This document shows positions 5,190-31,527 of a stretch of DNA of 64,000 nucleotides, piece after piece. Source of the stretch: Massilia litorea (lineage in GTDB: Bacteria; Pseudomonadota; Gammaproteobacteria; Burkholderiales; Burkholderiaceae_D). Position numbers and translations under genes: made by a program. The notes beneath the pieces were generated by a model. That model was not told where the DNA came from, did no database searches, and saw only the letters and a program-made list of their open reading frames with translations. The stretch is from NCBI RefSeq assembly GCF_015101885.1, contig NZ_CP062942.1, positions 1-64,000 on the forward strand, read 5' to 3'. The first letter of the stretch is position 1, and the number at the start of each line of letters is the position of its first letter.

Positions 5190-5221
5190 CTATCCTGCCC
5201 TCATCAAGAACGGAGTTAGAC

Positions 5222-7717: not shown

Positions 7718-7833
7718 GGTAGGCGCTATTAGAGTCGGGTGTTTAAAGAGTACAACAAAGACGGAGCTATCTTTACCTGGTTTGAGCCTTGTCAAAGGCA
7801 CTTATTATATTTAATAAGATTATGAAACTGCGA

Positions 7834-7853: not shown

Positions 7854-7971
7854 ATCAATCGATAGTGGCGGTTGAACGGCAACAAATTTATAGATGCGTC
7901 GCCATTGCTTGATATTAGAACGGAAATGTTCGGAGAGTTTTCGCTGACCAATCTACGAAGCGACTAGAATC

Positions 7972-9945: not shown

Positions 9946-9997
9946 TTATTTCATTCTAGCGTCCACCTAACCCATCCACTGATTCGTGAGGAACCTC

Positions 9998-11326: not shown

Positions 11327-11346
11327 GCGTTCAACCGGAGAAGAAC

Positions 11347-12420: not shown

Positions 12421-12422
12421 TT

Positions 12423-13037: not shown

Positions 13038-13059
13038 CCCTCACAAAACGGACCTTAAC

Positions 13060-14229: not shown

Positions 14230-14296
14230 GTTTGCAAGGGCTACTCTTACCAGGGTTCGGCTAAAGGAAGCGATGTTAACGCTCGGGACAGGTGAA

Positions 14297-15532: not shown

Positions 15533-15560
15533 ATTAAAACGGCTGTTGCAGGTGAGGCCC

Positions 15561-16217
15561 ATGCGTCACTCGTCATATTTCGGCCGAAAAATTTTGAGGA
15601 CATGGCTTCACTCATCTCGCAGAAAGAAAACGTCGAAAGTAAAGACCAAAGAGGTGACAAAACGTTTGCTCGATATATCGTTTGCGTTAGTAGCAATGTC
15701 CATTTTAACGGTACCCTTCCTGGTCCTCGTTATTTTGGTAAAGCTAACTTCGAAAGGACCAGCACTTTACTGGTCGGACCGAATCGGCCGAGATAACGTA
15801 ATTTTCTCGATGCCAAAATTGCGGACAATGCGCGTAGGCACACAAGTGGTAGCGACTCACCTCCTTCCGAACCCTGACGAGTGCCTCACACCGATCGGCG
15901 GGTTCCTGCGCAAGTCGAGCCTAGATGAATTACCGCAACTATGGTGCATCTTCCGCGGCCAGATGAGTCTCGTCGGCCCGCGCCCAGCGTTATTCAATCA
16001 GCACAACCTCATCAAAATGCGCACCGAAAAAGGCATCCATATGATCCGTCCAGGTTTAACTGGATGGGCACAGATCAATGGTAGAGATGAGCTACCAATA
16101 CCTGAAAAAGTAGAGCTCGACCTCTACTACTTGCGCCACCGATCGATAGCATTCGACGCGAAAGTTATTTTCCTTACGTTTCTAAAGGTGATGCGTCGTG
16201 AAGGCATTACCCACTGA
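15561..16217 (+). CDS. Undecaprenyl-phosphate sugar phosphotransferase (bacterial sugar transferase)
   Basis: The ATG at 15561 follows a GGTGAGG site, so it is preferred to the TTG at 15546. The product of 218 residues has one hydrophobic N-terminal segment (ALVAMSILTVPFLVLVILV) and the bacterial sugar transferase domain: SKGPALYWSDRIGRDN, the KLRTM motif, RKSSLDELPQLW, SLVGPRPAL and RPGLTGWAQINGRD. This is the short PglC/WcaJ-core type lacking the extra N-terminal membrane domain. It links the first sugar phosphate to undecaprenyl phosphate and so starts the repeat unit. Position next to the GT4 and SDR genes fits. Confidence 0.92.
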   Translation: MRHSSYFGRKILRTWLHSSRRKKTSKVKTKEVTKRLLDISFALVAMSILTVPFLVLVILVKLTSKGPALYWSDRIGRDNVIFSMPKLRTMRVGTQVVATHLLPNPDECLTPIGGFLRKSSLDELPQLWCIFRGQMSLVGPRPALFNQHNLIKMRTEKGIHMIRPGLTGWAQINGRDELPIPEKVELDLYYLRHRSIAFDAKVIFLTFLKVMRREGITH

Positions 16218-16280
16218 CAAATCCTGCGATGTTAGCAAAATTATTGATTGCGTCCAGCAACAATTTTCACAGGGAATTCT

Positions 16281-17165
16281 ATGCGTACCATTGCAATCAT
16301 CGGCGCAACAGGAGAAGTCGGTTTCAGACTCGTGCATGCTCTACGATCGACATACAAAATAATTGCGATAATTCGTAACCGGGAAAAGCGGGACTTCAGC
16401 TGCTATCCCGACGTTGAAGTCCGTCAGCTCGATGATATAACGGATTTCAATAGGCTCGGTTTATTGCTCAGCGGGTGCGAAGCCATTATAAACACAGCAT
16501 ACATTTGGTTTGCTGAACACATTCATCGAGCAGTATTGCACAGTAAAACGCCCATTCGTCATGTCGTATTAACGGGGTCGACCGGAATCTATACGCGCTT
16601 ACCGTCCGAGAGTGCAGACCGTAAGCGCGAAGCCGAAGCATTCGTACGTACAAGCTACCGTTGTCCCTGGACAATTATTAGGCCCACCATGATTTACGGC
16701 CATAAGGACGATCGAAATATATCGCGTTTAGTTCAGGCGGCTGCTCACTACCCCGTCTTACCTTTAATCGGTAAGGGCGATAACCTTATTCAACCTGTGC
16801 TAATTCACGATCTCATCAGAGCTTATAAAATGGCAGTACTTAATCCTAAATTTTATAATAAGTCCTACGATATTGGAGGAGGTAAGGCATATTCGAATAG
16901 GGATTTAATCTCCTGCGCTGCATCAAGCCTCGGGAAACCAGCCCGGTTAATGCCCCTTCCTATAGCGCTCATTCGAGGCGGGATCGCTTTGCTTTCGGTA
17001 ATAGGGAAGAGCCCGATCTCGAAGGAGCAGGTAGGGCGCTTCCAAGAAAACAAAGATATTGACCTTGCCCCGTTCATTAGCGATTTTGGCTATATCCCTC
17101 GTGATTTCGAACATGGAATCCATTGGTTGATACGAGATCTGAAAGTTCACAGATTACTCCGCTGA
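16281..17165 (+). CDS. NAD-dependent sugar epimerase/dehydratase-like SDR (atypical)
   Basis: The ATG at 16281 begins MRTIAIIGATGEVGFRL directly after an AGGGA site; the longer open frame from 16248 is not supported. The 294-residue protein has the GATGEVG NAD(P)-binding motif and the later IIRPTMIYG segment typical of sugar SDRs. The classical YxxxK active site is replaced by a charged segment (SADRKREAEAF), so it is atypical. It could be the 4-reductase or epimerase that uses the CapD-like product, as seen for WbpK/WbpV in related loci, but this is inference. It is the last plus-strand gene before the convergent block. Confidence 0.75.
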   Translation: MRTIAIIGATGEVGFRLVHALRSTYKIIAIIRNREKRDFSCYPDVEVRQLDDITDFNRLGLLLSGCEAIINTAYIWFAEHIHRAVLHSKTPIRHVVLTGSTGIYTRLPSESADRKREAEAFVRTSYRCPWTIIRPTMIYGHKDDRNISRLVQAAAHYPVLPLIGKGDNLIQPVLIHDLIRAYKMAVLNPKFYNKSYDIGGGKAYSNRDLISCAASSLGKPARLMPLPIALIRGGIALLSVIGKSPISKEQVGRFQENKDIDLAPFISDFGYIPRDFEHGIHWLIRDLKVHRLLR

Positions 17166-17313
17166 CATTCAAAATGGTAATGTCGGAGATAAATCGGGCG
17201 GCGCTCTTTAATGTTTGATATGACCGACGAGCCGAAAATCAACATCGCAATCCGCCACGCATGTCGGCAGTAGATCACTGACATGGAGTTTTACTGCCGA
17301 GCCAAACCGCATT

Positions 17314-18483
17314 CTAGCGCGGATAAAAATGGTATTTGCGAAGTCCGTTGACTGTATTGCGCAATAACTGTACGGGCTCGTACAAGTTGCGGTAACTCCG
17401 AAATGATTTGATCGGGGCCCGCATGATGTCTTCGAACTGCTGGGGCGACAATCTGAGTTTCTTTGAAACATACGCGAGATCCTGCTGCTGTAGATCTTCA
17501 GGATAAGGGGGACGTTTCATTTCTGCTAGCGCTTGTGATCGGCTTATCTGACTCGCGTTGATCAGATCGGACAAGTGGCCATAACGTTTATCGATCCCGA
17601 ACTTACGCGGTAGAACATAGCCTTGGTAGAACCTCGTATAAATCGACTCGTGGTGCTTCCCTCCATAATCTTTCCAACCTAAACTGTTGCATAGTATTTC
17701 TTTTGCCCTTTCTTTATTATAGTCGACGTAGTTAAGTATTGAGACCATACGAACGCCCCGCACGACATTCGCATAGCACAAGTAAGCCAGGCTAAAATGC
17801 GGATAGGTTTTAAGTTTCACAGAACCGAATCGTCGGTGAATGTCTTTAATGTAACGCCAGTCGGAGTGTCCATAGGACCATTCGGGCACACTAATTGACT
17901 CGGTGGCGAAGTTCATGCCTGAGATGATGTACTTGATGCCGCGCGAAGTCGCTTCTTTCCAAAGCAAAGCACCTATCGCATGGTCTGTTGGTATTTCCCC
18001 GTCCGGCGTGGAGGCCTTCAGAAACGCGAGTTGCAAATCGCGAAATTCGTCCCAGTCAACGACATGGGTATGGAGGTCGATTTTTATATTGCAGAGCACG
18101 CGCTCGATATTCTTGGTGGCTAGTTCGGAATTCCAACCATTGTCAAAGTGAACTGCTAGCGGACGTAACCCATGCTGTTTGACGAGCCAGGCCACATACG
18201 TGCTATCTACTCCGCCGCTGACCCCAATTATGCAGTCGTACTCGCGTCCCTGTCCGGCTGCCTTAATGCATTCCACTAAAGCTTGTAGTGCGTCTCGCCC
18301 AAGATCGCCGCGCAGGTGTCGAGCACTTACCAGTTTGTCATAACGAAGACAGTGCCGGCATAAGCCGTCGTCATCAAAGGAAATACTTTGATCCGCTACA
18401 GTGTCCATGATGCAACGGGTGCATACCTGGTAGGATTTGGAAGGGGCCAATGGGTAGCCGGCGTTCTCGGTAAGGGATGTCAT
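17314..18483 (-). CDS. wbuX: N-acetyl sugar amidotransferase (WbpG/WbuX family)
   Basis: A 389-residue ATP pyrophosphatase-type enzyme. An N-terminal zinc-binding pattern is visible (Cys21-x2-Cys24 in QVCTRCIMDT and Cys42-x2-Cys45 in GLCRHC), followed by the PP-loop IIGVSGGVDSTY (SGGVDS at residues 89-94). This family works with dedicated HisH- and HisF-like proteins that supply ammonia, and it converts acetamido or carboxyl groups on surface sugars into acetamidino or amide groups. Both partners lie directly upstream, and its start overlaps the end of the HisF-like gene by four bases. The substrate is probably the GlcNAc(3NAc)A made by the opposite-strand wbp genes. It is last in the minus-strand operon. 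Confidence 0.9.
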   Translation of the reverse strand: MTSLTENAGYPLAPSKSYQVCTRCIMDTVADQSISFDDDGLCRHCLRYDKLVSARHLRGDLGRDALQALVECIKAAGQGREYDCIIGVSGGVDSTYVAWLVKQHGLRPLAVHFDNGWNSELATKNIERVLCNIKIDLHTHVVDWDEFRDLQLAFLKASTPDGEIPTDHAIGALLWKEATSRGIKYIISGMNFATESISVPEWSYGHSDWRYIKDIHRRFGSVKLKTYPHFSLAYLCYANVVRGVRMVSILNYVDYNKERAKEILCNSLGWKDYGGKHHESIYTRFYQGYVLPRKFGIDKRYGHLSDLINASQISRSQALAEMKRPPYPEDLQQQDLAYVSKKLRLSPQQFEDIMRAPIKSFRSYRNLYEPVQLLRNTVNGLRKYHFYPR

Positions 18484-19241
18484 TTAAATAACCTTTCAAG
18501 TTCTTCGTATTCGGGGTAGGTGATCAAAACAGCACGGTGTTTACCGTGAAAGACAAACATGCTTCCGGCTGCAAGGCCAGAGGCCCCCGCTCCCGCCGCG
18601 TTTCGTAAATCCGGCAAGTGGGCAGCACCACCAGCTGCAACGACCGGGATCGAAACCGCTTTACACACACGGCCTATGAGTTCCAGATCGTAGCCTTCCA
18701 TTGTTCCGTCACGGTCGATAGCGTTTAGTAGAATTTCACCTGCGCCCAGCTGCTCGACCGCGCGAGCGTACTCAACCGGATCACGTTTGAGGTCGCGCGT
18801 GCCGCCGGCCACGTGAACCGAATATTTGCCCATCCAATTACGGCGCACATCGATTGATACTATTACGCCAGAACTGCCTGCGAGCGCGGCGGCTGCCGAT
18901 ACCAAGTCGGGCTGATCAGCAGCCGCAGTGTTGAGAACTATTTTCTCAACTCCCAAACTATATAAGCGCTTTACATGTTCGATACTTTTGATGTTGCCGC
19001 CATATGCAAATGGCATAAAGGCCTCACTTGCAATCTCAGCGAGCAACTCGAAATTAGGGATGGCCGGCACGCCGGGATTGCCAATGTCGAGAAAGACCAG
19101 TTCGTCTACCTCTTTCTCGTTGAAAATTCGCACAGCATTGATGGGATCGCCCACGTAGCGTGCGTTCTTGTATTTGACTGTCTTAACCAGACCGCCATTG
19201 CGCATGAGCAAACAAGGAATTACGCGTGCGTGCACCATCAT
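18480..19241 (-). CDS. wbuZ: HisF-like sugar-amidation protein (WbuZ)
   Basis: A 253-residue TIM-barrel protein related to the imidazole glycerol phosphate synthase cyclase subunit: RVIPCLLMRNGGLVKTVKY at the N-terminus, VDELVFLDIGN, PFAYGGNIKS, EKIVLNTAA, VSIDVRR and VVAAGGAAHLPD. It differs from true HisF in its opening and substrate-loop sequences and sits between a HisH-like and an amidotransferase gene rather than in a his operon. This points to the WbuZ/HisF2 role in sugar amidation, probably as an ammonia channel. Its stop overlaps the next gene and its start overlaps the HisH-like stop, so the three are translationally coupled. Start may be either of two adjacent ATGs. Confidence 0.9.
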   Translation of the reverse strand: MMVHARVIPCLLMRNGGLVKTVKYKNARYVGDPINAVRIFNEKEVDELVFLDIGNPGVPAIPNFELLAEIASEAFMPFAYGGNIKSIEHVKRLYSLGVEKIVLNTAAADQPDLVSAAAALAGSSGVIVSIDVRRNWMGKYSVHVAGGTRDLKRDPVEYARAVEQLGAGEILLNAIDRDGTMEGYDLELIGRVCKAVSIPVVAAGGAAHLPDLRNAAGAGASGLAAGSMFVFHGKHRAVLITYPEYEELERLFK

Positions 19242-19849
19242 ATCCTCGCGAAATTGTGCAATAGCGACATGCCGAAGCGATGGCTCTTCTCCGGATGGAA
19301 CTGTACCCCGTAGATATTTTCACGCTGCACCATCGCTACGAAGTCCCCGCCGTGGTTCGCTGTGGCCAAAATATCGTCAGGATCATTGCAGAACATGCGA
19401 TAGGAGTGGCAGAAATAAAAACGTGACCGTTCGTCAAGTGTGTGCAATAGCGCGCTGTCGCGATGTGGAACTAGAAGGCTCCAGCCCATATGTGGCACCT
19501 TTAGTCCGCTGCCTGGTGGCATGCGGAAGCGGCGTACCTCGGCGTCAACGAGACCTAGTCCGTTCATGCTACCTTCCTCGCTACGCCGACCTAACATCTG
19601 CATACCCAAGCAGACACCCAGTAGTGGAACCCTATCGTTCAACGCCTTTTTTCGCAACGGCTCGGCCAGACCTCGATCACGCAAAGCAGCGATGCCGTTA
19701 TCAAATGCCCCTACGCCCGGCAACACGATTTTCTCGGCCCGTTCCACCTCTGCAGGAGTTGATATCAGCTCAGCTTGGGCACCAACTTTATGCAGCATGT
19801 TGAGCATTGAGCCTAGATTGCAGACGCCGTAATCAATGACAGAAATCAT
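19238..19849 (-). CDS. hisH: HisH-like glutamine amidotransferase (WbuY)
   Basis: The ATG at 19849 is chosen because GGGAGA lies just upstream and it begins the standard MISVIDYGVCNLGS; the open extension to 19876 is unnecessary. The 203-residue class I glutaminase has the nucleophile Cys80 in LLGVCLGMQMLG and the His-Glu pair in GVQFHPEKSHRFG. It releases ammonia from glutamine for the WbuX reaction through the HisF-like partner, with which it overlaps by four bases. Its start overlaps the upstream glycosyltransferase gene by 17 bases. This is a dedicated second copy, not the histidine-pathway enzyme, judging by context. Confidence 0.9.
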   Translation of the reverse strand: MISVIDYGVCNLGSMLNMLHKVGAQAELISTPAEVERAEKIVLPGVGAFDNGIAALRDRGLAEPLRKKALNDRVPLLGVCLGMQMLGRRSEEGSMNGLGLVDAEVRRFRMPPGSGLKVPHMGWSLLVPHRDSALLHTLDERSRFYFCHSYRMFCNDPDDILATANHGGDFVAMVQRENIYGVQFHPEKSHRFGMSLLHNFARI

Positions 19850-21017
19850 GGTCGTTCTCCCGTCGGTAATCGCCACCGGTATGTAACGAACGCATGCCTA
19901 ACGCCCCTAAATAGACTTCGTGAAGTTTCTTCTCCTGGCCTTCCCAACAAAATTCATCGGCAGTACGAACCAGTGCCACCTGCAGCTCATTCTGATCGCG
20001 TGAAAGGAGATTTTTGACGCCCTCGCAGATGGCTGCTGGCGTCGTGCCGCTCGCGACCTCTCCGATACCTTGCTTGCGCACGAATGCGCTCTGTTCCGTC
20101 GTAGGCGACACTAGCACTGGTTTTTTTGCCATCACATATTCGAATAATTTGTTTGGCATGCAGTAATCGTAGCTGAGGGAGGTAGGCTCAATCACAGACA
20201 GCCCAAAGTCCGCGGACGCCGTATAGTCGAGGAGCTGATCCGGGGACACCGCTGGGTGATAATGGACGCCAGGGCGGTGTTTAGCCTCGTTGGCGATCCA
20301 TTCAGTCAGCGGACCATAGCCCATGACAACGAGTGCCGCGCGGTCGGAAAATGCGGAAAAGGCCTCGACAAGATTAAATATCCCTCGGCCTGTGCCGATC
20401 ATGCCTTGATACAAAAAGATCGGAACGTTTGACGGAATTTGAAATGTCTTGCGGAAATGGTCTGCTGATTCCACTTGACGGCGAACCGGGCAGTTGTACA
20501 ACACTGTCGTATTCCTTAGCCCATATTCGCGAACATACCATTGCTCAATGGCGCTCCCTACGAAAATACAGTGGTCAACATGCCGAATTAATCTGCGTTC
20601 AGAGTGCTTGGTCAGGAGTCTGCGTACTCCCGCAAGGCCATTTGTTTCGGTCTCGAGTTCATGGGCGTCATACACTAGCTTCGCTCCAGTGCTGCGGCTA
20701 AGCATTACGCCTAGAGGAAGCGTTGCTACGCTGTGACAATTGATACACCCAATCTCTTTATTGTAGTAGCGCTGATATACTGCTCTGCTCCACTTGCTAG
20801 TACGTGCTAACTTTCCTAACAGACCAGTCCCACTCCGCTGTCCAATTCGTACGATCCGGATATCAGTTTGTATAGCTTCAATCGACGCTATCCCGTCCTG
20901 GCCCACACCTATCAATTCGATTTGATCAAACAGTTTTAGACGCGAAAGCGAACCGGCCTCTCGCAAGATCCGGCTCTCGTTAAGAAACACCGACGGATAC
21001 AGGTGAATATTGATCAT
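19833..21017 (-). CDS. Glycosyltransferase family 4
   Basis: The ATG at 21017 follows AGGAAGCGGGAA and is preferred to the open start at 21035. The 394-residue product is a GT4-like enzyme: N-terminal INIHLYPSVFLNESRI, acceptor-domain INCHSVATLP and LVYDAHELETE, and a C-terminal donor domain with FLYQGMIGTGRGIFNL, LVVMGYGPL, the late MPNKLFEYVMAKKPVLVSP helix, and acidic residues preceding it (SVIEPTSLSYDY). It adds a sugar to the repeat unit in the cytoplasm. With only two glycosyltransferases and one initiating enzyme recognised, the repeat is likely a tri- or tetrasaccharide unless further enzymes lie outside the window. Confidence 0.87.
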   Translation of the reverse strand: MINIHLYPSVFLNESRILREAGSLSRLKLFDQIELIGVGQDGIASIEAIQTDIRIVRIGQRSGTGLLGKLARTSKWSRAVYQRYYNKEIGCINCHSVATLPLGVMLSRSTGAKLVYDAHELETETNGLAGVRRLLTKHSERRLIRHVDHCIFVGSAIEQWYVREYGLRNTTVLYNCPVRRQVESADHFRKTFQIPSNVPIFLYQGMIGTGRGIFNLVEAFSAFSDRAALVVMGYGPLTEWIANEAKHRPGVHYHPAVSPDQLLDYTASADFGLSVIEPTSLSYDYCMPNKLFEYVMAKKPVLVSPTTEQSAFVRKQGIGEVASGTTPAAICEGVKNLLSRDQNELQVALVRTADEFCWEGQEKKLHEVYLGALGMRSLHTGGDYRRENDHDFCH

Positions 21018-21053
21018 TTCCCGCTTCCTCATCAATTATTTATGACTTTTCGA

Positions 21054-22328
21054 TTACTTAGATCGGGCTCGATAGTTCGCGTAGGCGCCCATAGCGGCTC
21101 CAGCGAACATATCGTCGAAAGTTTTTGCGGTGAAGAGTAGTAATAGCGACATACACATTAGCGAACACGCTAGAAGGAACTGGCTCGATCGGACCTTCAA
21201 CAGCCACCCTTGCGCGAACAGCTTGACGGTGGCGGTCATAAGCATGAAAAATAAATATACAAAGCCGAAAAGACCGAGATCGACCCACGCAGACAAAATG
21301 TTGTGCGAATATGCACCCGATGGATAGCTCGCGTAGGCACCCAGAACAGGATGCTCTACAATGGTTTGTAGTGCACGTTGTGTAAGATTGTATCGAGAGC
21401 TTGCGGATTCCGAATGCGACAAATCAAATAATTCCCAAACCCGATTCTCAGGAAGGTGCGTCATAACGCCTTGTGGGCCTACAACGACCAAAATAATGAT
21501 CGACAGCACAATAAAAAAAATGTGCAGTGCGTTCCTTGCACGATATATTTCAATTAGTGGTAGGACAAACAGCACCCCTATCAGCTCGCTCCGAGCACTG
21601 TTTAGAAACATGGCTACCGCAGCCATTACATATAATATCAAGCGCAACAATCTTGATTTTATAAAACATACTACTGAAACGAATGTGAGCGCATACGAGC
21701 GAGCGAAACCTTGGTAAGTTGCTACTTTCTCAGGATCTTTTGGAGAACCCACCTGACCAGGCTGGAAGCTTCCCCCACTTGAAAAGAAAAAAATTATCGC
21801 AGACATTAGCAGCAACGATACAACAGCAAACGCGATAGTCTTTCGGTCCGAAAAGTCGATGCTCTTAAAGATCAAATAAATATTAACAAAGTAAAGGACC
21901 GAAAGTAAATGACTTTTGACCGTGACGGTGTCGGCGCCAAACGCGGCGTTAATAGCCACCACGATCAAAAAATATGCTAGGAAAAAGCCGAATTGGACGT
22001 CAGTGGGAGCAACTCGGTATCCGGAAGCCTTTACGGTACTCCAGTAGGCATAGCCGATGGGAATGAAAAGCAGGATCGAGACAGCTGCGAAGTAGCCGCC
22101 AAGCAACGCTCTCATTGCGCCGACCCCAATTAGCGTATGGTAAAAGAAGAATCCGGGAAACAAGAGCAAAAAGGCGGCGCGCGCCAAATTAAGAATTTTG
22201 CCGTCATTAACCGTAGTGCTTGCGCGACCATAATTTATACGCATGGCGTTTCCGTCCGCGAAGAGAACCAATGCGTAATATTGTGCGAACCATGTACTGT
22301 TATGCGAAGGGGAGCTCGGTTGAGACAA
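21054..22328 (-). CDS. O-antigen/exopolysaccharide polymerase, Wzy/WaaL type
   Basis: A very hydrophobic protein of up to 424 residues with about ten or more predicted membrane segments (for example AVVSLLLMSAIIFFFSSG and IFFIVLSIIILVVVGPQG). A large loop with a TLVEHPV-like piece (TIVEHPVLGAYASYPSGAYSHNILS) matches the O-antigen ligase/polymerase family signature in which a conserved histidine is followed by a membrane helix. In a Wzx/Wzy locus this is the polymerase that joins lipid-linked repeats in the periplasm. The true start is uncertain; the ATG at 22244 (MRINYGRAS) would also keep all membrane segments. It precedes the GT4 gene by 36 bases. Confidence 0.8.
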   Translation of the reverse strand: MSQPSSPSHNSTWFAQYYALVLFADGNAMRINYGRASTTVNDGKILNLARAAFLLLFPGFFFYHTLIGVGAMRALLGGYFAAVSILLFIPIGYAYWSTVKASGYRVAPTDVQFGFFLAYFLIVVAINAAFGADTVTVKSHLLSVLYFVNIYLIFKSIDFSDRKTIAFAVVSLLLMSAIIFFFSSGGSFQPGQVGSPKDPEKVATYQGFARSYALTFVSVVCFIKSRLLRLILYVMAAVAMFLNSARSELIGVLFVLPLIEIYRARNALHIFFIVLSIIILVVVGPQGVMTHLPENRVWELFDLSHSESASSRYNLTQRALQTIVEHPVLGAYASYPSGAYSHNILSAWVDLGLFGFVYLFFMLMTATVKLFAQGWLLKVRSSQFLLACSLMCMSLLLLFTAKTFDDMFAGAAMGAYANYRARSK

Positions 22329-22599: not shown

Positions 22600-23646
22600 T
22601 TATCTATTCCCCATATGTGACAGAATGCACTGGCGCAGTGATAGCAGAGGCGATGGAGTTTTGCTGACGCGGAAATAGGGAACATGCTCGCCTCCGAATC
22701 CTCGCAAGTAAGCCTCGACTGATCTGATCATCGAGCCACAGAAGTTGTACTGACGCGTAACGCTAGCTGCATGGCGAACTGTCTCCCACAGGCAAAGACT
22801 AGCCGCACCGGTGTGACGGTACTCCGGATCGGCGCCGGAGATTAAGCCGTAGGCGCTGTTTTCATCCCACACGTAGTAATATCCACAAAGCGGTATGCCG
22901 TGAGGATCGACTGCAACGAGTAACTTGCGGCAGTTGCGTTCTGCACATGCAGCGTCGAGTCGGCGAACGAACTCGTCCGTATAGGGGGGCACTAGCCCTT
23001 GGCGTTCGAAAGTCTTGCGGTTCAACTCGAGAAGCACGTCAAGTGACATGTCGTCGCGCACTTGTAAGCGATGTTTGCTTTCGGCCTTAGCAATAATTCG
23101 CCGAATATTACCGTCGAGCTCTGCCCATAATTTCTTAAGATTGGACAAATCTGGTAGGACGTAAGTGTAGTATGTGGTCTGCTGAAATCCATTCCAGTAA
23201 AAAGGCTGCCAGTTTCTGCGGCTGTGGTGCCAAGCCTGCGCAAAATGATCGAAAGACGGGAGCTGGTCGATCAGCGCCTGCATGAGTTCGTTTTCGCCGC
23301 TTAAACGTGTTGCTAGCTTGCCTTCAAGCTCATGTAGCCACGGACCAAGAATCGGAGTCAGTGCCGGTTGGCTGAGAACGCGCATCGTATAGCGGGTGCG
23401 TAGAACATAAGGCATTGACGCAATAATGACGTCACCCTTCTTAACAACAACAACATCCCATCCTTGCGAACCAACCGCGGCATCTAGCCACCAATCCCTG
23501 GAAAATAGAGGAATTGAAGGTTCCTGACGGCAAAACAAGCGGTACTCTTCTTTTGGCGAAACAGCACGGCTGGGCTCTGGCACTTGCCCGGTCAAAACTG
23601 AATGCGCTAAGTCCGTTGGTAAAGCTGTGGTAAGAATAGGAACCAT
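22600..23646 (-). CDS. FemAB/CelD-like GNAT acyltransferase, copy 1
   Basis: The ATG at 23646 follows GGGAGAAA and gives 348 residues; the frame is open to 23667. The C-terminal half matches the Acetyltransf_6 (CelD/BcsL, FemAB-like) fold: RRIIAKAESKHRLQV, LELNRKTFERQG, VDPHGIPLCGYYYVWDEN and YNFCGSMIRSVEAYLRGFG. Such enzymes transfer acyl or aminoacyl groups to surface polymers. It is strikingly similar to the gene at 27902 (most positions identical along the whole length) and distantly similar to 28979. It lies between the polymerase and the tyrosinase. The acyl donor cannot be told from the sequence. Confidence 0.85.
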   Translation of the reverse strand: MVPILTTALPTDLAHSVLTGQVPEPSRAVSPKEEYRLFCRQEPSIPLFSRDWWLDAAVGSQGWDVVVVKKGDVIIASMPYVLRTRYTMRVLSQPALTPILGPWLHELEGKLATRLSGENELMQALIDQLPSFDHFAQAWHHSRRNWQPFYWNGFQQTTYYTYVLPDLSNLKKLWAELDGNIRRIIAKAESKHRLQVRDDMSLDVLLELNRKTFERQGLVPPYTDEFVRRLDAACAERNCRKLLVAVDPHGIPLCGYYYVWDENSAYGLISGADPEYRHTGAASLCLWETVRHAASVTRQYNFCGSMIRSVEAYLRGFGGEHVPYFRVSKTPSPLLSLRQCILSHMGNR

Positions 23647-23667
23647 CGAGGCTTTCTCCCTCATCAA

Positions 23668-24518
23668 TTTGCAATCGAGCGGTGTCTCTCATAGTTTGCC
23701 TGGTCGTACGATCGCGGCTACTCGCAACCGCCGCCCGAGCACCGAGCTTTCGTGACATTACTTGTATATTGTTCTCGGGACGATTCGCCCGAATCAAAGC
23801 TCACGGTCGCCCAACAACTGAATATGGGTCATACTCTCAAGGCTAGCCTGACAACAGTCACTATGTTCAGTAAAGGAAGCGGATCTAAGGGTCAACCGCC
23901 CACGATTTAACAAAGTTAGGCGCATCATGCCTCGTACACCTTCGGGCTCGCAGACTTCGTTCTGCATACCCTAATCCTAATGGCATTTGCGATTAAAAAA
24001 TGGCTTACTGCACGCTTGATCTACATGCAGTTGATTCTGCCACGACGCTAGAGGTAAAAATTTGATTTCGATCTATGTTTGAGCAGAACGCGGCCCAAGT
24101 GTACAGGGGCGGTTTCGACCGATGTTTAGGGCTTTATGCTCACCCAGCCACGTTACGCAGTTGCCTATTGAGCAAAACCGCTAACTTCAATCGTCTTGAG
24201 GTCCGACAGGCGCAACCTCAGACAGCGCTTAATGGCTGAGTCGAACACCAACAGCTGCGGCGAGAACTGCAGTCTTTGCCGAGTATCACTTTTCTGTTTG
24301 ACCGCAATGTCCGGGACAGGTTAATTTCAGGCCTAATTGTTGTTAAGCCGATCAAGCACGGCGATGCGCTCCCAGTCAAACGGATTTATCGGGCGCGCCA
24401 TAACTAAGACCGACGTATATTGTTTTGTGTCAAAATTGGATAAGTGTCTGCAACTCGAAGATAACGGTGAGGCCCACTGGCCTTTTTAAAGTTCGTTGTC
24501 GGGCCTCACCAATCCGTC
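23668..24518. other. Intergenic, no gene recognised
   Basis: About 850 bases between the first FemAB-like gene and the tyrosinase gene, both on the minus strand. No open frame with a start signal and no recognisable relic was found. A gap this long inside the minus-strand block could hold a terminator for the tyrosinase and a new promoter for the genes from 23646 leftwards. A weak pair of GGCC(C) stretches near 24470-24485 (GTGAGGCCCACTGGCC) was noted but is not convincing as a terminator. Confidence 0.4.
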
Positions 24519-25943
24519 CTACGCCGTCGTAGATATTTCGACTCGCACTTCGCTTATACCGATCACTCCACCTGCGGGACTACGGTCCCCATTAACTCGG
24601 ACAAAGGACACTGACATCATCCCGATGTCACTCATGGATGCGCCCGATAGCGCGTCTTTGATCGGATATCGCAATTGGATGCGGCCCCCGGCGTGGTGAG
24701 AGGCGGCGTTTATTTCGAAGGGTCCGACTGTGCCAATATAGATGTTGGTTGGCCTCAGAGGGATTCCCTTACCTGAAATTATATTCAGGTATATTTGATA
24801 GAAGTAGCCTCCGTTCTTTCCGCTTTCTGACATTTCAATGCCGTCGAAAACGGCGAATGCTGAGCGATACGTTCTCGTACTTCCAGGGACGGACGCAGCA
24901 CGACCAGCAGCGATTTCGACCAATGCTCGACTATATTCCGCGGCCACTGGGAGCTGAACGCTAATCGACCGGTTGTCTAAGCCAACGTTTAGGGCGCCAG
25001 TAACGGAAAACGTCTGGTCGCTGGTTTGATGCGGCCCAGATACCGGGAAAGAACCGACGGGAGGAGTCGACCCAAGTAGATCATTTGAAGTCGCTTGCAC
25101 GCGGTAAATATTTTTACGACTGAGTTGCGCTACTGGTAACTGAGTAGGGAACGTTTCGCTGGCATAACGGTAACCCAACGTGGTCCGGGTACTATAAGTG
25201 TCTGTTCTCGACATCGTAAGTGAGCTGCTATAGGTATGCTTACCTTTCCAGTAGGGCTTGGTTATTCCGGGCATTTGCCGACCAGCCCCGGCGTTTACCC
25301 AAGCGACCCAGAGTCGATCAACGTTCGCATGATGAAGCCAGAAAATCGGATCGACTGGAGACGACATAGTTGCCATTACGTTCCCAACAATATTGTGAAG
25401 TTGGTTGTGTGGTGCACCCTCAAAGCTCGGCTCGTATGCGTTGCTCGTTCCGGTCTGGAAATTGACGAGATTGGAGCTGAACGGCGCGAGCGTTAACGCT
25501 TGTCGAACGTTAGTGTTGACGCGTTCGACGTACAGTGGGCTAGTAGAGTTGGTAAATTCGCTCGGTAACGTTGCATAGGAATAGTAGTCCCAATATGGAA
25601 GAATGAGCTGGGCATCGCCAGAGACTGCACGGAGCTGGCGCTCAAAATAGTATAAATAGCCGCGATGCCATGCGAGAAAGTATGGGGCACCGTGTGGGCA
25701 ATAGTTGCGGTGAACATTCGTCCAATACGACCAACTGTTGGGGTCGGCTGAATTAGTGTTTGCTTTCATCGAACTGATCGCCTTAAGCAAGGAATCGTAG
25801 TGGCCTGTAGTTTTGAAAGATTGCCATTCAGGACGGACAGTTAACGTAGTTTGGCCAAACACCTCTAGCGGAATCGTCGCCGTGCCCAGTAAAATAGAAG
25901 AGCTTTTTATGAAATCCCTTCTGCTGAAATCTCCCTGTTTCAT
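24519..25943 (-). CDS. Tat-exported tyrosinase (type 3 copper oxidase)
   Basis: The ATG at 25943 has AAGGAGAAGGAA directly upstream and begins a twin-arginine signal (SRRDFIKSS at residues 7-15, then a hydrophobic stretch), so the longer frame to 26090 is rejected. In the 474-residue product the CuA site is visible as His78 (NVHRNYC), His84 (CPHG) and His93 (AWHRGYL). The CuB site is visible as PHNQLHNIVG and DPIFWLHHANVDRLW. The C-terminal 200 residues look like the beta-sandwich lid found on plant-type polyphenol oxidases. The family hydroxylates monophenols and oxidises diphenols to quinones. It would act in the periplasm after folding with copper. Its place inside an exopolysaccharide block, between FemAB-like genes, is unusual. 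Confidence 0.92.
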   Translation of the reverse strand: MKQGDFSRRDFIKSSSILLGTATIPLEVFGQTTLTVRPEWQSFKTTGHYDSLLKAISSMKANTNSADPNSWSYWTNVHRNYCPHGAPYFLAWHRGYLYYFERQLRAVSGDAQLILPYWDYYSYATLPSEFTNSTSPLYVERVNTNVRQALTLAPFSSNLVNFQTGTSNAYEPSFEGAPHNQLHNIVGNVMATMSSPVDPIFWLHHANVDRLWVAWVNAGAGRQMPGITKPYWKGKHTYSSSLTMSRTDTYSTRTTLGYRYASETFPTQLPVAQLSRKNIYRVQATSNDLLGSTPPVGSFPVSGPHQTSDQTFSVTGALNVGLDNRSISVQLPVAAEYSRALVEIAAGRAASVPGSTRTYRSAFAVFDGIEMSESGKNGGYFYQIYLNIISGKGIPLRPTNIYIGTVGPFEINAASHHAGGRIQLRYPIKDALSGASMSDIGMMSVSFVRVNGDRSPAGGVIGISEVRVEISTTA

Positions 25944-26543
25944 TTCCTTCTCCTTCGAGAATTCGACGGTGTTTGATGCTTTGCTGTTTCGCAACCTTGT
26001 ATTTTTCAAAGTTGCAATCTTCAATGATGAGGCCCAACTGTTACGGTCAATGGTAGCTATAGAAGGTCTTCGCAATTTGACATTTATCATGTCTTGAGCA
26101 GTGGCCTTGGGGCTGTTGGGGTTAGCGCCACTAACGACAAACGTTGTTGCGAGTCAGGGAAGCCACGATTCGTCGCTGGGAATCGCAAGCGCACATCTGC
26201 AACACATTTACGGACAGGAAAACTCGACTATATGTGGCGAGGATTTCTGGATTGGACGAGCGAGCAAACCATGTTCCGATTGAGTAGAAAGGGGTTCGGA
26301 TCATTTATCAATGCGGCGTAATGGCGGTTCTGTTATAACGATGCCGGACAAGTACGCTCGACGTTCGGCTGGTGGCACCGGTACCACCGACAAGTCACTG
26401 TGGTGGACGTCGTGTTGCGCGTGATCGTGCTGAGTAGACATAGTTTCAGCGAGCCCCGCGGTCGAGTAAATGGAAGTGCACGCGTCTTTTCGCTGCGCCA
26501 GCCGTACGTTGAGCAACCGGCCTGGAGTAGACAAATTAACGAG
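25944..26543. other. Intergenic, no gene recognised
   Basis: Some 600 bases upstream of the tyrosinase start. A 77-codon minus-strand frame (26301-26534) has no recognisable domain and no good ribosome-binding site. The stretch must contain the tyrosinase leader with its strong ribosome-binding site at about 25948-25957 and may contain a promoter for it. Confidence 0.4.
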
Positions 26544-27905
26544 CTATTGGATCAGATTCGAGTACATTGTTCGATCCGCCTCTTCTGTAAGTGACGAATT
26601 GTGCCAAAGCAGAGTGAAGTCACCGTGAAACTGGCTGCAAATCTCTTTATAGCGTTGCATTGCTGCAAGAGCTCGCTCGCCACGTCCCAAGCCCATATTT
26701 GCCTCATCAATTACAGCGTTTTCCATCACAATGAGAGGGCGTTGCTGTAGCGAAAGTGGACGACGCTCGATGATGTCGTACATCGTGTACTCGCGGCATG
26801 TGCCGGTTCGAAATCCTGCAGTCGTAGGGTATGACAGCGTACTGTCATAGCTCAATTCGTTCGCTGCCCACAGTCGGGCTGTTGTCGTGACATCCCAACG
26901 TAAATAATGCTGACGTCCTCCTAGCTCATGCTGAGTTATCCCTTCCTGATCTAGTGCACGTCTCAGTGTCTCGACAGAACTCGCAAACAGTTGTGGGCAG
27001 CAATAAGTGTTATAGCCGGGGTGAATACCTACGAAGTGACCGCGGCGATGGACTACTTTGAGTAGATGGCGCATACGCCAGTCGTCTAGACTGGGCGCGT
27101 TATCCATGTCTCGGTCCGTTGGCTTTGGGATGAAATTAAAGGTGACACGGTTCCCGGCCTTTTCGTTAACATCCATGATCCAAAACAACGCCTGCCAGTA
27201 TGGATCGCTACTTTGGTTACCTCTTTGAACTGACCAGTAATTGTGGACGCTAGACGTCAAACCGCCCAGTGAACGTTCGCGGTATGCACGGCCCGCGAGC
27301 CTCTTGCAGAGGCGAGAAATGGAAGTGCAGGCTGGATCGAACGGCAGGTCAACATCACAGCTGATTAGCTTGCGTCCTACGTGTTCTTTTCGTTTCAGAC
27401 CCGGCCAAAGGCGACGCATGGCTGCCCACAAAATTTCCACATACTCGTCAACTATCGGGCGGTTAAGAAAACCTAGTCGGACCGCACTCGACGCTTCGGC
27501 GGGAAAACGACCATGTCGATCATGCTCTTTCCACTTCCATTCCTCATAACGCGTCAGCATGAAAAACGCTGAGCCAAATACGTCGAGGGATAGCAGCGCA
27601 TCGCCTTTCGTATCAATCGTAAAACCGGGGCTCCCGAACAGAACTGGAATGCTCTCCGCGCACAGCTGGATATCAAGGGAACTCGCTGCCAAAGTCCAGT
27701 GTTGTCCAAGGTTTGTCGTTTTCACCTGGTTCGCAAAGAAGGAATCTGAGACAGTCAGTGTCTTACCCGACGCGGTAAGACGCACCATGTGGTCGCGCCC
27801 GAAGGTCAAACTGTGCTCAAGCCCAAGAAATTGCCCGAGCAAGACTTCCGTAATCCAAATCCGCTCGGGCTGCCAGTTTGAAGGAAGACTGATGTGTAGC
27901 ATCAT
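26544..27905 (-). CDS. Polysaccharide-deacetylase-like protein
   Basis: A 453-residue protein, start at one of two adjacent ATGs. The C-terminal half looks like a divergent NodB-type deacetylase: LISCDVDLPFD supplies an Asp-Asp-like metal/catalytic motif (CDVD). Then come VTFNFIPKPTDRD, HFVGIHPGYNTY with the His of the H-x-S/H metal motif, LRWDVTTTARLWAANELSYDSTLSYPTTAGFRTGTC, and a late LLWHNSSL. The N-terminal 200 residues (SAFFMLTRYEEWKWKEHDRHGRF) resemble the accessory domain often fused to such proteins in surface-polymer loci. There is no signal peptide, so a cytoplasmic role on precursors, or a non-classical location, is implied. It overlaps the upstream FemAB-like gene by four bases. 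Confidence 0.75.
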   Translation of the reverse strand: MMLHISLPSNWQPERIWITEVLLGQFLGLEHSLTFGRDHMVRLTASGKTLTVSDSFFANQVKTTNLGQHWTLAASSLDIQLCAESIPVLFGSPGFTIDTKGDALLSLDVFGSAFFMLTRYEEWKWKEHDRHGRFPAEASSAVRLGFLNRPIVDEYVEILWAAMRRLWPGLKRKEHVGRKLISCDVDLPFDPACTSISRLCKRLAGRAYRERSLGGLTSSVHNYWSVQRGNQSSDPYWQALFWIMDVNEKAGNRVTFNFIPKPTDRDMDNAPSLDDWRMRHLLKVVHRRGHFVGIHPGYNTYCCPQLFASSVETLRRALDQEGITQHELGGRQHYLRWDVTTTARLWAANELSYDSTLSYPTTAGFRTGTCREYTMYDIIERRPLSLQQRPLIVMENAVIDEANMGLGRGERALAAMQRYKEICSQFHGDFTLLWHNSSLTEEADRTMYSNLIQ

Positions 27906-28951
27906 TTAGCCCCGATGTGTGACAAAAAGCCCTGACGAAGTGACAGTAGAGGTGACGGTGTTTTGCTGATGCGGGAATAGGGCACGTGCTCGCCTCCAAA
28001 TCCACGCAGGTAGGACTCGACTGATCTGATCATTGAACCGCAGAAGTTGTACTGATGCGTAACGCTAGCGGCTTGTCGAATCATTTCCCAAAGACAAAAA
28101 CTGTTCGCGCCGGTGTGACGAAAAGTTGGATTTGTGCCTGAGATCAAGTTATACGCACACTCGTCATCCCATACCAGATACTCACCTGAAAGGGGCACGC
28201 CGTGAGGGTCTACTGCAACGAGAAGCTTACGGCGGTTACGTTCTAGACATGCGGCGTCAAGCCGGCGCACGAACTCGTCCGTATAGGGGGGCAGCAGCCC
28301 TTGGCGTTTGAAAGTCTTGCGGTTTAGCTTGAGAAGTACATCAAGTGGCAAGTCATGGCGCACCTGTAGCCGATGTTCTTTATCTGCCTTCATAATGTTC
28401 CGCCGGACTTTACTATCGAGTCCCGCCCACAGTTTCTCAGAATCGGAGAGATCTGGCAGGATATAGGTGTAGTACGTGGTCTGCTCAAATCCGTTCCAGT
28501 AAAAGGGCTGCCAATTACGTCGGGTCGAGTGCCAAGTCTGGGAAAAATGGTCAAAAGGCGGGAGTTGGTCAATTAGCAACTGCATAAGTTCGTTTTCAGT
28601 GCTTAAACGTGTCGCTGGCTTACCTTCAAGCTCATGTAGCCATGGCCCAAGAATTGGCGTCAATGCCGGTTGCGTGACAACGCGCATCGTATAGCGGGTG
28701 CGTCGAACATACGGCATTGACGCAATGATGGCGTTACCCTTCTTCACAACTACAACATCCCATCCTTGCGGACCGACCGCAGCATCCAGCCACCAGTCCC
28801 TGGAAAACAAGGGAATCGAAGCTTCTCTCTCGCAAAAGGACCGATACTCGTCTTTGGGCGAGACGGTGTCACCTGCAGTCGACCCCAACTGCGACAAGTG
28901 TCTATGTACTTCCCTATTTGACGCTTTACTGTTAATTGCGCTAGCGTTCAT
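27902..28951 (-). CDS. FemAB/CelD-like GNAT acyltransferase, copy 2
   Basis: A 349-residue paralogue of the gene at 22600, nearly collinear. Long shared stretches include IPLFSRDWWLDAAVG, QPALTPILGPWLHELEGK, YTDEFVRRLDAAC and KTPSPLLSLRQ. The N-terminal 30 residues differ. It has the same CelD/FemAB-type C-terminal domain. Its stop overlaps the start of the deacetylase-like gene by four bases, so these two are coupled. Keeping two close copies separated by other genes suggests duplication followed by specialisation, for instance different acyl groups or positions. Function beyond acyl transfer is inferred. Confidence 0.85.
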   Translation of the reverse strand: MNASAINSKASNREVHRHLSQLGSTAGDTVSPKDEYRSFCEREASIPLFSRDWWLDAAVGPQGWDVVVVKKGNAIIASMPYVRRTRYTMRVVTQPALTPILGPWLHELEGKPATRLSTENELMQLLIDQLPPFDHFSQTWHSTRRNWQPFYWNGFEQTTYYTYILPDLSDSEKLWAGLDSKVRRNIMKADKEHRLQVRHDLPLDVLLKLNRKTFKRQGLLPPYTDEFVRRLDAACLERNRRKLLVAVDPHGVPLSGEYLVWDDECAYNLISGTNPTFRHTGANSFCLWEMIRQAASVTHQYNFCGSMIRSVESYLRGFGGEHVPYSRISKTPSPLLSLRQGFLSHIGAK

Positions 28952-28978
28952 AATCTACTAACTCAGGTAATCGCATCG

Positions 28979-30001
28979 CTAGCTCTTTGGCAAAGCCAAT
29001 TTTAAACCTTGTCGCAATCGTAAAAGCCTTGAGGGCGTTTTGCTAATGGTAAAAATTTGGCTTTGCTCCGTTCCGAAGCTACGAACATATGGCTCAATAG
29101 AAGGATTGCTGTTTCCGAGAAAGTCATACTTAGGCGCTACGGTCGAGCTAAACTTAATCGCTTCCCACTGGCACAAACTCGGCGCACCTGAGTTGTGCAT
29201 TTCCGGATGAGAGCCCTTCATTAAAGCGTAGGCGCAAGTGCTGTCCCAGACCGTGTAAGTGCCAGCGCAATGATTGCCTTCTTCGTCAACCACAATATGG
29301 ATTTTGCGGCGACCTCGTGCGGCGCAAGCAGCGTCTAATCGACGTAGGCAGTCGTCATCGAATGACTGGACAATGCCACGATTCGCAAGTGTTATCTTGT
29401 GGAGCGCCAAAAAAGCGTCCACAGGAAGGTCTTCGCACACTCGAAGCCGTCCGGCGCCCTGTTTACAGTGCTTCCGCCGGCTCGAATCAAAGTTACTCCA
29501 CACCTTATCTAGGTCGTCCAGTCCGTGCACGACGTACGTATATTCGGTGGTTTGGCTGAAACCCTTCCAATAGAAGGGTAGCCAGTTTGAGACGTTTCTA
29601 CTTAATGTTTGTCGGAAATGATCGAACCGGGGAAGTTGCTCGATGAGCGACAGCATCACTCTTTGTTCGTTGCCTAGCCTCGTCGACGCCTTCTCGCCGT
29701 TTTGAGCTATCCATGGGCCCAGGAATGGGGTAAGCGGCGGTTGCTGGATGACCTTCATTCCAAACCTCTTGCAAGTGACGAACGGCATCGCACCGATAAT
29801 CCGTCCGTTTAGGATTGCGAGAGCTACATCCCAGTTTGTAGGTCCTACAACCGCATCGAGCCACCAACTAGTGCAAAACACAGGAATCGACGGCTCCGTT
29901 TCACAGAATGCACTATAGGAAGCTTTGCGGGATAAGGCTGCACTTTCATTCTGCACAGCTTCATTGCCCGTAACGCTTGGGCTTTTGATTACTGCATCCA
30001 T
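28979..30001 (-). CDS. FemAB/CelD-like GNAT acyltransferase, copy 3 (divergent)
   Basis: A 340-residue protein collinear with the two other copies but clearly more diverged: IPVFCTSWWLDAVVGPTNWD, QQPPLTPFLGPWIAQ, FYWKGFSQTTEYTYVV, CLRRLDAACAARGRRKIHIVV, YDFLGNSNPSIEPYVRSFG and KTPSRLLRLRQ mark shared positions. It lies 27 bp upstream of copy 2 in the same transcript. A tryptophan- and tyrosine-rich centre (WLPFYWKGF) is common to all three and may form the acceptor pocket. The divergence pattern suggests it split first and copies 1 and 2 later. Confidence 0.85.
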   Translation of the reverse strand: MDAVIKSPSVTGNEAVQNESAALSRKASYSAFCETEPSIPVFCTSWWLDAVVGPTNWDVALAILNGRIIGAMPFVTCKRFGMKVIQQPPLTPFLGPWIAQNGEKASTRLGNEQRVMLSLIEQLPRFDHFRQTLSRNVSNWLPFYWKGFSQTTEYTYVVHGLDDLDKVWSNFDSSRRKHCKQGAGRLRVCEDLPVDAFLALHKITLANRGIVQSFDDDCLRRLDAACAARGRRKIHIVVDEEGNHCAGTYTVWDSTCAYALMKGSHPEMHNSGAPSLCQWEAIKFSSTVAPKYDFLGNSNPSIEPYVRSFGTEQSQIFTISKTPSRLLRLRQGLKLALPKS

Positions 30002-30045: not shown

Positions 30046-31353
30046 TTAACTTGACTGCGGTTTTTGCAATCGCAGGTCGCCTGCACAGGCAAACATATAG
30101 CTTGCGGCCAAATTTATAAGATCGAATATGGCAGAGACTGCTACGAACCCTAAAATAAAATCTTTTGCATCAAGGTCGACAAAATAATGGATTGCGGTTA
30201 CAAGCAACAAGCACATCAATAACCCCGCCTGCCACAAAAATTCAAACCGATTTTTTTGAGCGATTATTGCGACCAGGCTCAAAGGGTTACTGATGAAGCG
30301 AAAGTAAAACATCGGGCACATCAATTGTGCGTATTCTCCAGCGACACGCCACCTTTCGCCGAACAAGTGGGCAAAAACCAGAGGGGAAAAAAATAGACAC
30401 AATGAAAAGGGCGGAGTGGAAATCGCGACTAGCTTCCATAGAGTACTCACGAAATTTTTCCTACAATGGTTGCCAGCGGTATAAGACTCAGCCATTTTCT
30501 GTCGAAACACGTCTCCTATCGACGCGGAAACCAGAGAAACAGGCATCCCAACTAGTCTTTCAGCAAATAAGTAATACCCGGCGGCCGAGAGACCGAAATT
30601 TGCAGTAACAAAAACCGCAGGTAGCTGAACAGCTAGAGCGCTCAAGACGTGTGCAGGCACTAGAAATTTTACGCAACTAATGTATCGCTTTGCTAACACG
30701 AGAGTTTTGCGTTTGTCGATAACTCGCCATATATTTCGATTGTGACGAAAAATTATATTTGCCATCATAGCCGATGCCAACGCCTGGCCGAAGATGCTAC
30801 CGATGACCAGTCCCCCCGCATCGGTGCGCAGAAAGCCTAAGGCAATTTGTACAGCTGAAGTCCCTCCACTTTGTAAGACTCGCCGATGGGCCATTATGCG
30901 GTAGAGCTTGTTCCGATTACTCCAATAATTCAGATTTGAATAGATACCGTTGAGCAGAACCGCTAGCGGAACAAAGTACAGCCAAGTACAAATTGCGCTA
31001 TTTCCCAGCGCAGTTGAAATTCTGTCGTTTAAAGTCCAAGCTGCTATGAGCAAAATCGTGCTTGTTATAAAACAGATTGCGATGGATAACGCTGCCACAT
31101 TGATAGCGTCGGCATTCTTACGCGGTAGCATGATTGCAAGTTCATAACGGCCGGTGACTACTGCCGCTAAGCTTGACACCGTTGCCGTAAACAGTGCGAA
31201 AACCCCAAATTGTTCTGGATTGTAGAGACGCGACAAGATCGGAGTAACTCCGAGCGGTATAAGTTGTGCCAGTCCGGTTCCGGTCATCAAAGTGAGTACG
31301 TTGCGGTTGAACTCGCCCTTTACCAATACTCTGATAGCATTTACGATGAACAT
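30046..31353 (-). CDS. Wzx-type polysaccharide flippase
   Basis: A strongly hydrophobic protein with about twelve predicted membrane segments and the opening typical of Wzx flippases (TGLAQLIPLGVTPILSRLYNPEQFGVFALF). The ATG at 31353 gives 435 residues, usual for the family, with AGGAG about 12 bases upstream. The frame is open to 31527, and a start at 31422 is possible but would add a hydrophilic tail. It moves the lipid-linked repeat unit across the inner membrane before polymerisation. It is the first gene of the minus-strand block, with the promoter expected in the 31.4-32.2 kb gap. Start uncertain, family secure. Confidence 0.87.
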   Translation of the reverse strand: MFIVNAIRVLVKGEFNRNVLTLMTGTGLAQLIPLGVTPILSRLYNPEQFGVFALFTATVSSLAAVVTGRYELAIMLPRKNADAINVAALSIAICFITSTILLIAAWTLNDRISTALGNSAICTWLYFVPLAVLLNGIYSNLNYWSNRNKLYRIMAHRRVLQSGGTSAVQIALGFLRTDAGGLVIGSIFGQALASAMMANIIFRHNRNIWRVIDKRKTLVLAKRYISCVKFLVPAHVLSALAVQLPAVFVTANFGLSAAGYYLFAERLVGMPVSLVSASIGDVFRQKMAESYTAGNHCRKNFVSTLWKLVAISTPPFSLCLFFSPLVFAHLFGERWRVAGEYAQLMCPMFYFRFISNPLSLVAIIAQKNRFEFLWQAGLLMCLLLVTAIHYFVDLDAKDFILGFVAVSAIFDLINLAASYMFACAGDLRLQKPQSS

Positions 31354-31527
31354 ACCCGCTACATTTCTCCTGTATACCGTTGTAGTTTCCACTTGGCCTG
31401 TCTGATTGCTCGGTATCGTCATTGACCACCGGGCGCCAGCCGTGCGCAGCCTGGCGAAGTACGGATGCGCTAGAATTTTCGGGCGGAACTCATAAACCAG
31501 GTTTGATCTATATCTATACATCGACAA

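Follow-up and report, generated by a model that had tools for sequence, protein, structure and literature searches.

A Tat-type tyrosinase gene inside a Wzx/Wzy exopolysaccharide locus of Massilia litorea, with recurrent linkage in related genomes

Here, we describe a tyrosinase encoded within a Wzx/Wzy-dependent exopolysaccharide (EPS) locus in a stretch of 64,000 nucleotides from Massilia litorea (contig NZ_CP062942.1, positions 1 to 64,000 of the forward strand; hereafter the window). We propose, with a probability of roughly 45%, that the locus makes an EPS with an accessory matrix-oxidising enzyme, the tyrosinase oxidising or cross-linking the matrix. This is based on the gene content of the locus, the domains and copper ligands of the enzyme, and the recurrent linkage of tyrosinase genes to EPS genes in related genomes. 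In some relatives, too, a tyrosinase gene has stayed next to these polysaccharide genes, which is why we suggest that the slime may be oxidised and hardened by the enzyme. To our knowledge, no tyrosinase has been described that hardens a bacterial polysaccharide through the substituents which that polysaccharide carries, and no report of a link between a tyrosinase and an EPS locus was found in the literature searched, most of it outside subscription journals.

The tyrosinase (474 aa) probably starts at the ATG at 25943, which follows AAGGAGAAGGA, rather than at 26090, to which the open reading frame can be read back. From this ATG the N-terminus is MKQGDFSRRDFIKSS, with a twin-arginine motif (SRRDFIK at residues 7-13) from which export by the twin-arginine translocation (Tat) system is predicted. 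All six copper histidines of a type-3 copper tyrosinase are present in the PF00264 core, and R8, R9, H78, H84, H93, H179, H183, H204 and H205 are invariant in an alignment of 35 rows. Asn180 stands directly after HisB1, where asparagine is frequent among tyrosinases (PMC11608171), and the C-terminal domain folds as in latent polyphenol oxidases (PPOs). These features would class the protein as a type-3 copper enzyme with a C-terminal domain and a Tat signal. The pre-pro-tyrosinase of Verrucomicrobium spinosum (vsTyr) likewise joins a copper core, a C-terminal domain and a Tat leader, and its cysteine two residues ahead of the second copper histidine (C84, H86; PMC10526336) corresponds to C82-P-H84 here. 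The same layout of core and C-terminal domain is found in the PPOs 8b74 (Hahella), 7xio (Ralstonia) and 6els (apple), the identity of the window protein to vsTyr and these PPOs being about 19-30% across the aligned parts; unlike them, it is encoded within a Wzx/Wzy locus. Tyrosinase C-terminal domains have been remarked to resemble carbohydrate-binding or carbohydrate-processing domains, with carbohydrate recognition described as uninvestigated (PMC10526336), and our finding bears on that remark. The genome also holds two further full-length tyrosinase copies and one C-terminal remnant, the latter on the chromosome (L056, G000:C1:136300-156100), 4 kb from a Wzc-like gene and near genes for a WecA-like transferase and an epimerase.

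The EPS locus spans 4041-31527, with a plus-strand half (4041-17165) convergent with a minus-strand half (31527-17314) (Table 1). Wzx, Wza, Wzc and the initiating transferase expected of a Wzx/Wzy-dependent locus are all present, as are WbpA/B/D/E-type sugar genes: WbpE is recognised by a named structure (3nyu, E 1.8e-131), and WbpA, WbpB and WbpD by domain or by an unnamed dehydrogenase structure, the one matched by the WbpB-like protein (3q2i, E 5e-184) being called only "dehydrogenase". The minus-strand order is Wzx, Fem1, Fem2, VimE-like deacetylase, tyrosinase, Fem3, Wzy, glycosyltransferase, HisH, HisF2 and WbpG, which places the tyrosinase between the deacetylase and Fem3, a duplicated FemAB-like acyltransferase; the deacetylase and Fem2 genes overlap by 4 bp. 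An earlier note on this DNA had named a tyrosinase with its motif histidines and a Tat motif, three FemAB-like acyltransferases, a deacetylase-like protein, Wzx and Wzy on one strand, and we confirm all of these on the minus strand, Wzy partly from context because its PF04932 score lies under the cut-off. Fem2 and Fem3 are 79% identical. Since the four relatives described below lack this duplication (each has one Fem2-type and one Fem1-type gene), the tyrosinase and Fem3 together form the window's extra between deacetylase and Wzy. The duplication coincides with the position of the tyrosinase in the cluster. A PDB sequence search with Fem2 returned no match at E<=0.1, and the Fem structure model was poor (predicted local distance difference test 53.6) and was left unused for fold searching.

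Conservation in relatives, on which the earlier note had made its reading depend, was found. A deacetylase homologue occurs in 6 of 62 genus genomes (E<=1e-40), five of them, the window's included, at >=66% identity. The four relatives with this close cluster have the same block Wzx-Fem1-Fem2-deacetylase-Wzy-glycosyltransferase-HisH-HisF-WbpG, and all four carry a tyrosinase on the opposite strand, convergent with WbpG and less than 100 bp after it. The tyrosinase frame is open in the window and in all four (471-476 aa), in two different placements. Across 392 genomes sampled from the family (E<=1e-60 for both proteins), the deacetylase was found in 10 and the tyrosinase in 32, the overlap being the window and these four relatives. 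A fusion of Fem2 with the deacetylase in the relatives, hinted at by long reading frames, was dropped, as Fem2 ends in a stop codon in each of the four.

The history of the two placements was followed in a tree of 49 tyrosinases, from which two partial ones (L056 and the second of L082) had been dropped beforehand. The tyrosinases of the four linked relatives form one clade, whose sisters are two unlinked tyrosinases (100/99), and the window copy falls outside it; the two sister loci do not share the flanks of those four. A single ancestral EPS-tyrosinase unit, with the window copy and the linked four as one clade, was rejected by the approximately unbiased (AU) test (p-AU 0.00117), the five-copy group having been named from gene context before testing. 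We favour two separate recruitments beside the same EPS type, although one arrival with later relocation and loss would fit as well.

Linkage was also scored beyond this cluster, a tyrosinase counting as linked if Wzx, Wza or Wzc was matched no more than 10 kb away, for 50 copies, intact or not, in 35 related genomes (the 32 with a tyrosinase match in the family sample, plus G017, G018 and G024). The null model is uniform along the genome and has no hot spots; marker counts and rounded genome sizes were transcribed by hand, and near or far was judged by eye from coordinates. Twelve of the 50 copies are linked, where at most 1.9 are expected. Collapsing took out the window copy, three of the clade of four and one of a tandem pair, leaving 7 of 45 linked (1.72 expected, P 0.0015), or 6 of 44 (P 0.006) once the remnant on the window genome's chromosome is also removed. 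Acetyltransf_6 genes lie within 10 kb of 5 or 6 of 44 collapsed copies (here one of G035 and G051 was taken out as well) against 1.13 expected (P 0.005 or 0.0008), the neighbours being those among the matches listed or found with hidden Markov models (HMMs) built partly from the same loci, and the one in G146 resting on an HMM alone. Thus the proximity recurs in other EPS types above the uniform null.

Examples of linked loci elsewhere, checked by Pfam, comprise two tyrosinases with Wza, Wzx and WbqC (G195); Wzc, a glycosyltransferase, a UDP-sugar dehydrogenase, an epimerase and DegT (G244); Wzc, a glycosyltransferase, Wzy and AT3-SGNH (G038); AT3-SGNH and Wzc (G177); and AT3-SGNH and Wza (G019). 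At a further locus, in G117, Acetyltransf_6 and two glycosyltransferases were found. In G038 a sigma-70-family gene (L039:10687-11517) lies between the tyrosinase and Wzc. In the Massilia genomes G035 and G051 an Acetyltransf_6 gene directly follows the tyrosinase, with no other marker of the HMM set within the 20 kb examined. One universal tyrosinase-Fem pair is rejected: the Acetyltransf_6 protein of G035 and G051 is only 15-16% identical to Fem3, so the tyrosinase-Fem link holds at superfamily level only. In a collection of named species, an EPS or Fem marker was found at 19 of 77 loci, a count that uses HMMs built partly from the same loci and overlaps the 35 genomes. Eight Caballeronia/Paraburkholderia loci have a Wzc-like match within 10 kb, three of them weak (E 4e-40 to 2e-29) and one of the weak ones annotated as a short CpsD kinase (C. 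grimmiae); by Pfam, a MurJ-type flippase and a glycosyltransferase accompany Wzc at L138, and L168 and L173 carry glycosidase-like domains. On the Caballeronia grimmiae plasmid (L189:10109-11582) a CpsD-like kinase and an ATP-grasp amidoligase stand directly before the tyrosinase.

What, then, might a tyrosinase do beside these genes? The Wbp O-antigen genes of Pseudomonas aeruginosa include WbpG-HisH-HisF2, so that sugar nucleotide genes and the amidotransferase trio occur together as in the window, which adds a deacetylase, three acyltransferases and the tyrosinase. In Streptomyces CslA/GlxA an exported copper oxidase is encoded with a polysaccharide synthase; unlike the window tyrosinase, GlxA is a copper-radical oxidase of another fold. 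Another parallel is the Wbp/Vim pathway of Porphyromonas gingivalis and Tannerella forsythia, with which the window shares WbpB/E-type sugar genes, a VimE-like deacetylase and a pepcterm_femAB-related acyltransferase. In Porphyromonas, WbpA/B/E/D produce a 2,3-diacetamido uronic acid, from which VimE is proposed to strip the 2-N-acetyl group and to which VimA is proposed to attach an amino acid, Ser in Porphyromonas and Gly in Tannerella; Tannerella vimA in a Porphyromonas mutant changes Ser to Gly, and VimA is said to match the TIGR03019 (pepcterm_femAB) family (PMC7468200). The window differs in having WbpG/HisH/HisF2 in place of WbpS, in its tyrosinase, and in that no attachment to protein is known. 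In the Caulobacter holdfast, the HfsH deacetylase and HfsK N-acyltransferase, a pair of the same type as in the window (deacetylase plus GNAT-type N-acyltransferase), tune an EPS adhesin made with different sugar genes, and the portion of that work available to us mentions no tyrosinase (PMC5362036).

By analogy with these systems, the cluster would make a polymer containing a 2,3-diamino uronic acid via Wbp-type steps, and WbpG/HisH/HisF2 would give the sugar an acetamidino modification. In the cytoplasm, the VimE-like deacetylase would free an amine that a FemAB-like enzyme would re-acylate, plausibly with an amino acid, and Wzx/Wzy/Wza/Wzc would build the polymer and then export it. The tyrosinase would leave the cell through Tat, folded and copper-loaded, as a latent pro-enzyme; moving or cleaving its C-terminal domain would activate it, and it could then convert phenolic groups, whether part of the matrix or close to it, into quinones, and these would cross-link the matrix or darken it. 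It is plausible that a putative acyltransferase activity supplies the phenol to the polymer, and were an aromatic amino acid the group transferred by Fem3 or Fem2, the polymer itself would carry a substrate for the tyrosinase. We regard as doubtful the most specific version, in which a FemAB-like enzyme (perhaps Fem3) attaches a tyrosyl or similar phenolic amino acid to the diamino-uronic sugar once it is deacetylated, and the tyrosinase, after export, converts that residue to 3,4-dihydroxyphenylalanine (DOPA) and dopaquinone, the enzyme having been recruited more than once in Burkholderiales. If this is true, a catechol polysaccharide would here be genetically encoded, as a sugar-based analogue of mussel glue.

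Several findings weigh against a matrix-oxidising accessory. The tyrosinase gene is flanked by gaps of 600 and 851 bp, because of which its membership of an operon is not established. The earlier note had spoken of an operon, and this suits the remaining minus-strand genes, which are tightly packed (gaps of -44 to 44 bp, and one of 271 bp), but not the tyrosinase, which in the four relatives is moreover a separate convergent gene. The four relatives may represent a single event, because their tyrosinases form one clade. No tyrosinase was found at E<=1e-60 in five genomes whose deacetylase homologue is distant (39-47% identity), although four of the five have other EPS genes adjoining the deacetylase and two also carry UDP-sugar dehydrogenase, WbpB-, hexapeptide- and DegT-type genes. 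Most tyrosinase copies (38 of 50) lie more than 10 kb from Wzx, Wza or Wzc, the frame of the linked copy counted for G177 stays open for only 312 aa, and no EPS operon adjoins the tyrosinase in 4 of 5 listed Caballeronia plasmid regions, these being the four examined. Lastly, the deacetylase scores far under the cut-off of the VimE model (NF053580), which was exceeded in none of 10 genomes searched, and Fem2 far under that of TIGR03019, a comparison made with the family model rather than the VimA sequence (Table 1). Since both models fall so far short, we do not file the locus as a Wbp/Vim member; at most it would work like one. The earlier note had further suggested that an acyltransferase decorates the amino sugars with an amino acid or phenolic group for the tyrosinase to oxidise to quinones. 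The neighbourhood is real and kept, within the clear limits given here, and the acyltransferase/deacetylase pair does resemble VimA/VimE, the proposed route by which a diamino uronic acid receives an amino acid; the chemical coupling is something we infer, and it is weakened by the low identity of the G035/G051 acyltransferase to Fem3 and by the five genomes that lack a tyrosinase.

The same facts can be read in other ways. The enzyme could make ordinary melanin, either in the periplasm or outside it, with free tyrosine or phenols from the environment as starting material, in which case proximity to EPS genes would reflect a shared protective coat with no polymer-bound phenol. Tyrosinases are best known for melanin (PMC10526336, PMC11608171), their family occurs in many unrelated contexts, and the gene stands on its own in the four relatives; melanin alone leaves the Acetyltransf_6 acyltransferases near several tyrosinase copies unexplained, and we find this explanation possible but somewhat unlikely. 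It is unlikely that the tyrosinase is a mobile accessory gene with no functional tie, landing in polysaccharide loci and plasmids as recombination hot spots, although the plasmid location, the several paralogues per genome (as in this one), the featureless gaps around the gene and the many unlinked copies would all suit such hitch-hiking. The open frame retained in the window and in every close-cluster relative speaks against it, as does linkage above the uniform null, which weakens without excluding it because that null has no hot spots. No remnant of a transposon insertion was found in the flanking gaps on comparison with the plasmid collection and the compared loci.

A much more remote idea, which we consider very improbable, is that an aminoacylated diamino-uronic sugar anchors secreted proteins, as does the Wbp/Vim linking sugar of Porphyromonas and Tannerella (PMC7468200), and that the tyrosinase cross-links tyrosines of matrix proteins mutually or to the polymer. 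Besides that precedent, it could draw on the one exosortase of this genome (C1:1496366) and on the DUF1565 and DUF3466 proteins within the window; the exosortase, however, is carried by the other replicon, where Wzx and Wza matches of its own lie no more than 20 kb away, and no sortase family matched any of the 30 window proteins scanned with Pfam. That tyrosinases of one family lie repeatedly beside EPS loci provides a defined case in which to test for catechol-type adhesion or melanised slime in bacteria, and it does so in species already in cultivation, M. kyonggiensis (L114) being one Massilia with the linked cluster.

Table 1. Features of the window in and around the EPS locus, with the matches on which each assignment is based.
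Feature	Position	Strand	Basis
Wza export protein and Wzc tyrosine kinase	4041..7504	+	PF02563; WZC_N/GNVR/Wzz
Sugar genes: WbpM-like dehydratase, UDP-sugar dehydrogenase, WbpB-like Gfo/Idh, WbpD-like hexapeptide acyltransferase, WbpE-like aminotransferase	7972..14229	+	Domain and structure matches
Glycosyltransferase, initiating sugar-phosphate transferase, SDR-like protein	14135..17165	+	PF02397 188 bits
WbpG/WbuX N-acetyl sugar amidotransferase	17314..18483	-	TIGR03573 275 bits, cut-off 203
AglZ/HisF2 acetamidino-modification protein	18480..19241	-	NF038364 342 bits, cut-off 310
HisH-type amidotransferase	19238..19876	-	TIGR01855 225 bits
Glycosyltransferase	19833..21035	-	Glyco_trans_1_4 34 bits
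Wzy-type polymerase	21054..22328	-	PF04932 26.8 bits, below cut-off 31.7; cluster position
Fem3, FemAB/Acetyltransf_6-like acyltransferase	22600..23667	-	PF13480 59.8 bits
Non-coding gap after tyrosinase, 851 bp	23668..24518	-	No match to plasmids or to compared loci other than this place
Tat-type pro-tyrosinase, 474 aa	24519..25943	-	PF00264 111.5 bits, cut-off 22.6
Non-coding gap before tyrosinase, 600 bp	25944..26543	-	No match to plasmids or to compared loci other than this place
VimE-like carbohydrate deacetylase (DUF7033 N-terminal part)	26544..27905	-	PF23019 98.4 bits; NF053580 VimE 147.9 bits, cut-off 440
Fem2, FemAB-like acyltransferase	27902..28951	-	PF13480 53.8 bits; PF02388 26.6 bits; TIGR03019 27.4 bits, cut-off 260
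Fem1, Acetyltransf_6-like acyltransferase	28979..30001	-	PF13480 33.8 bits
Wzx-type flippase	30046..31527	-	PF13440 63.8 bits, above cut-off

Between 22300 and 30000, a sigma-70 scan gave no promoter-like site on the minus strand; the scanned region as a whole held 4 promoter matches against 10.2 in shuffles and 11 terminator matches against 11.5, with one terminator-like site within the 3' end of the tyrosinase gene (24630-24612). The genome consists of two contigs (5.35 Mb) and its named near relatives are Massilia/Telluria; the window covers the initial 64 kb of the smaller contig, C2 (158,663 bp). Because the end of C2 repeats its start across 19.2 kb (window 1-19246 and C2:139000-158663; 99.7% identity, no mismatches, 49 gaps), and a Rep3 initiator (C2:118485-119852) and ParA (C2:122149-123381) are present, C2 is in all likelihood a plasmid, circular and about 139 kb long. 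Its GC content is 51.5% in the window and 54-67% in other parts, with 61-63% in three chromosomal stretches. Elsewhere the plasmid carries a multicopper oxidase with an N-terminal RR motif (C2:86985-88379; L107:2985-4379) and a sigma-70-family gene (L109:13049-13693). The DUF1565 protein of the window (377 aa) is present as two identical copies 6.26 kb apart (49910-51043, minus strand, and 56171-57304), and is 75% identical to the product of a gene directly adjoining the tyrosinase in the linked relative G030; this gene has counterparts of 93-94% identity in the other three linked relatives.

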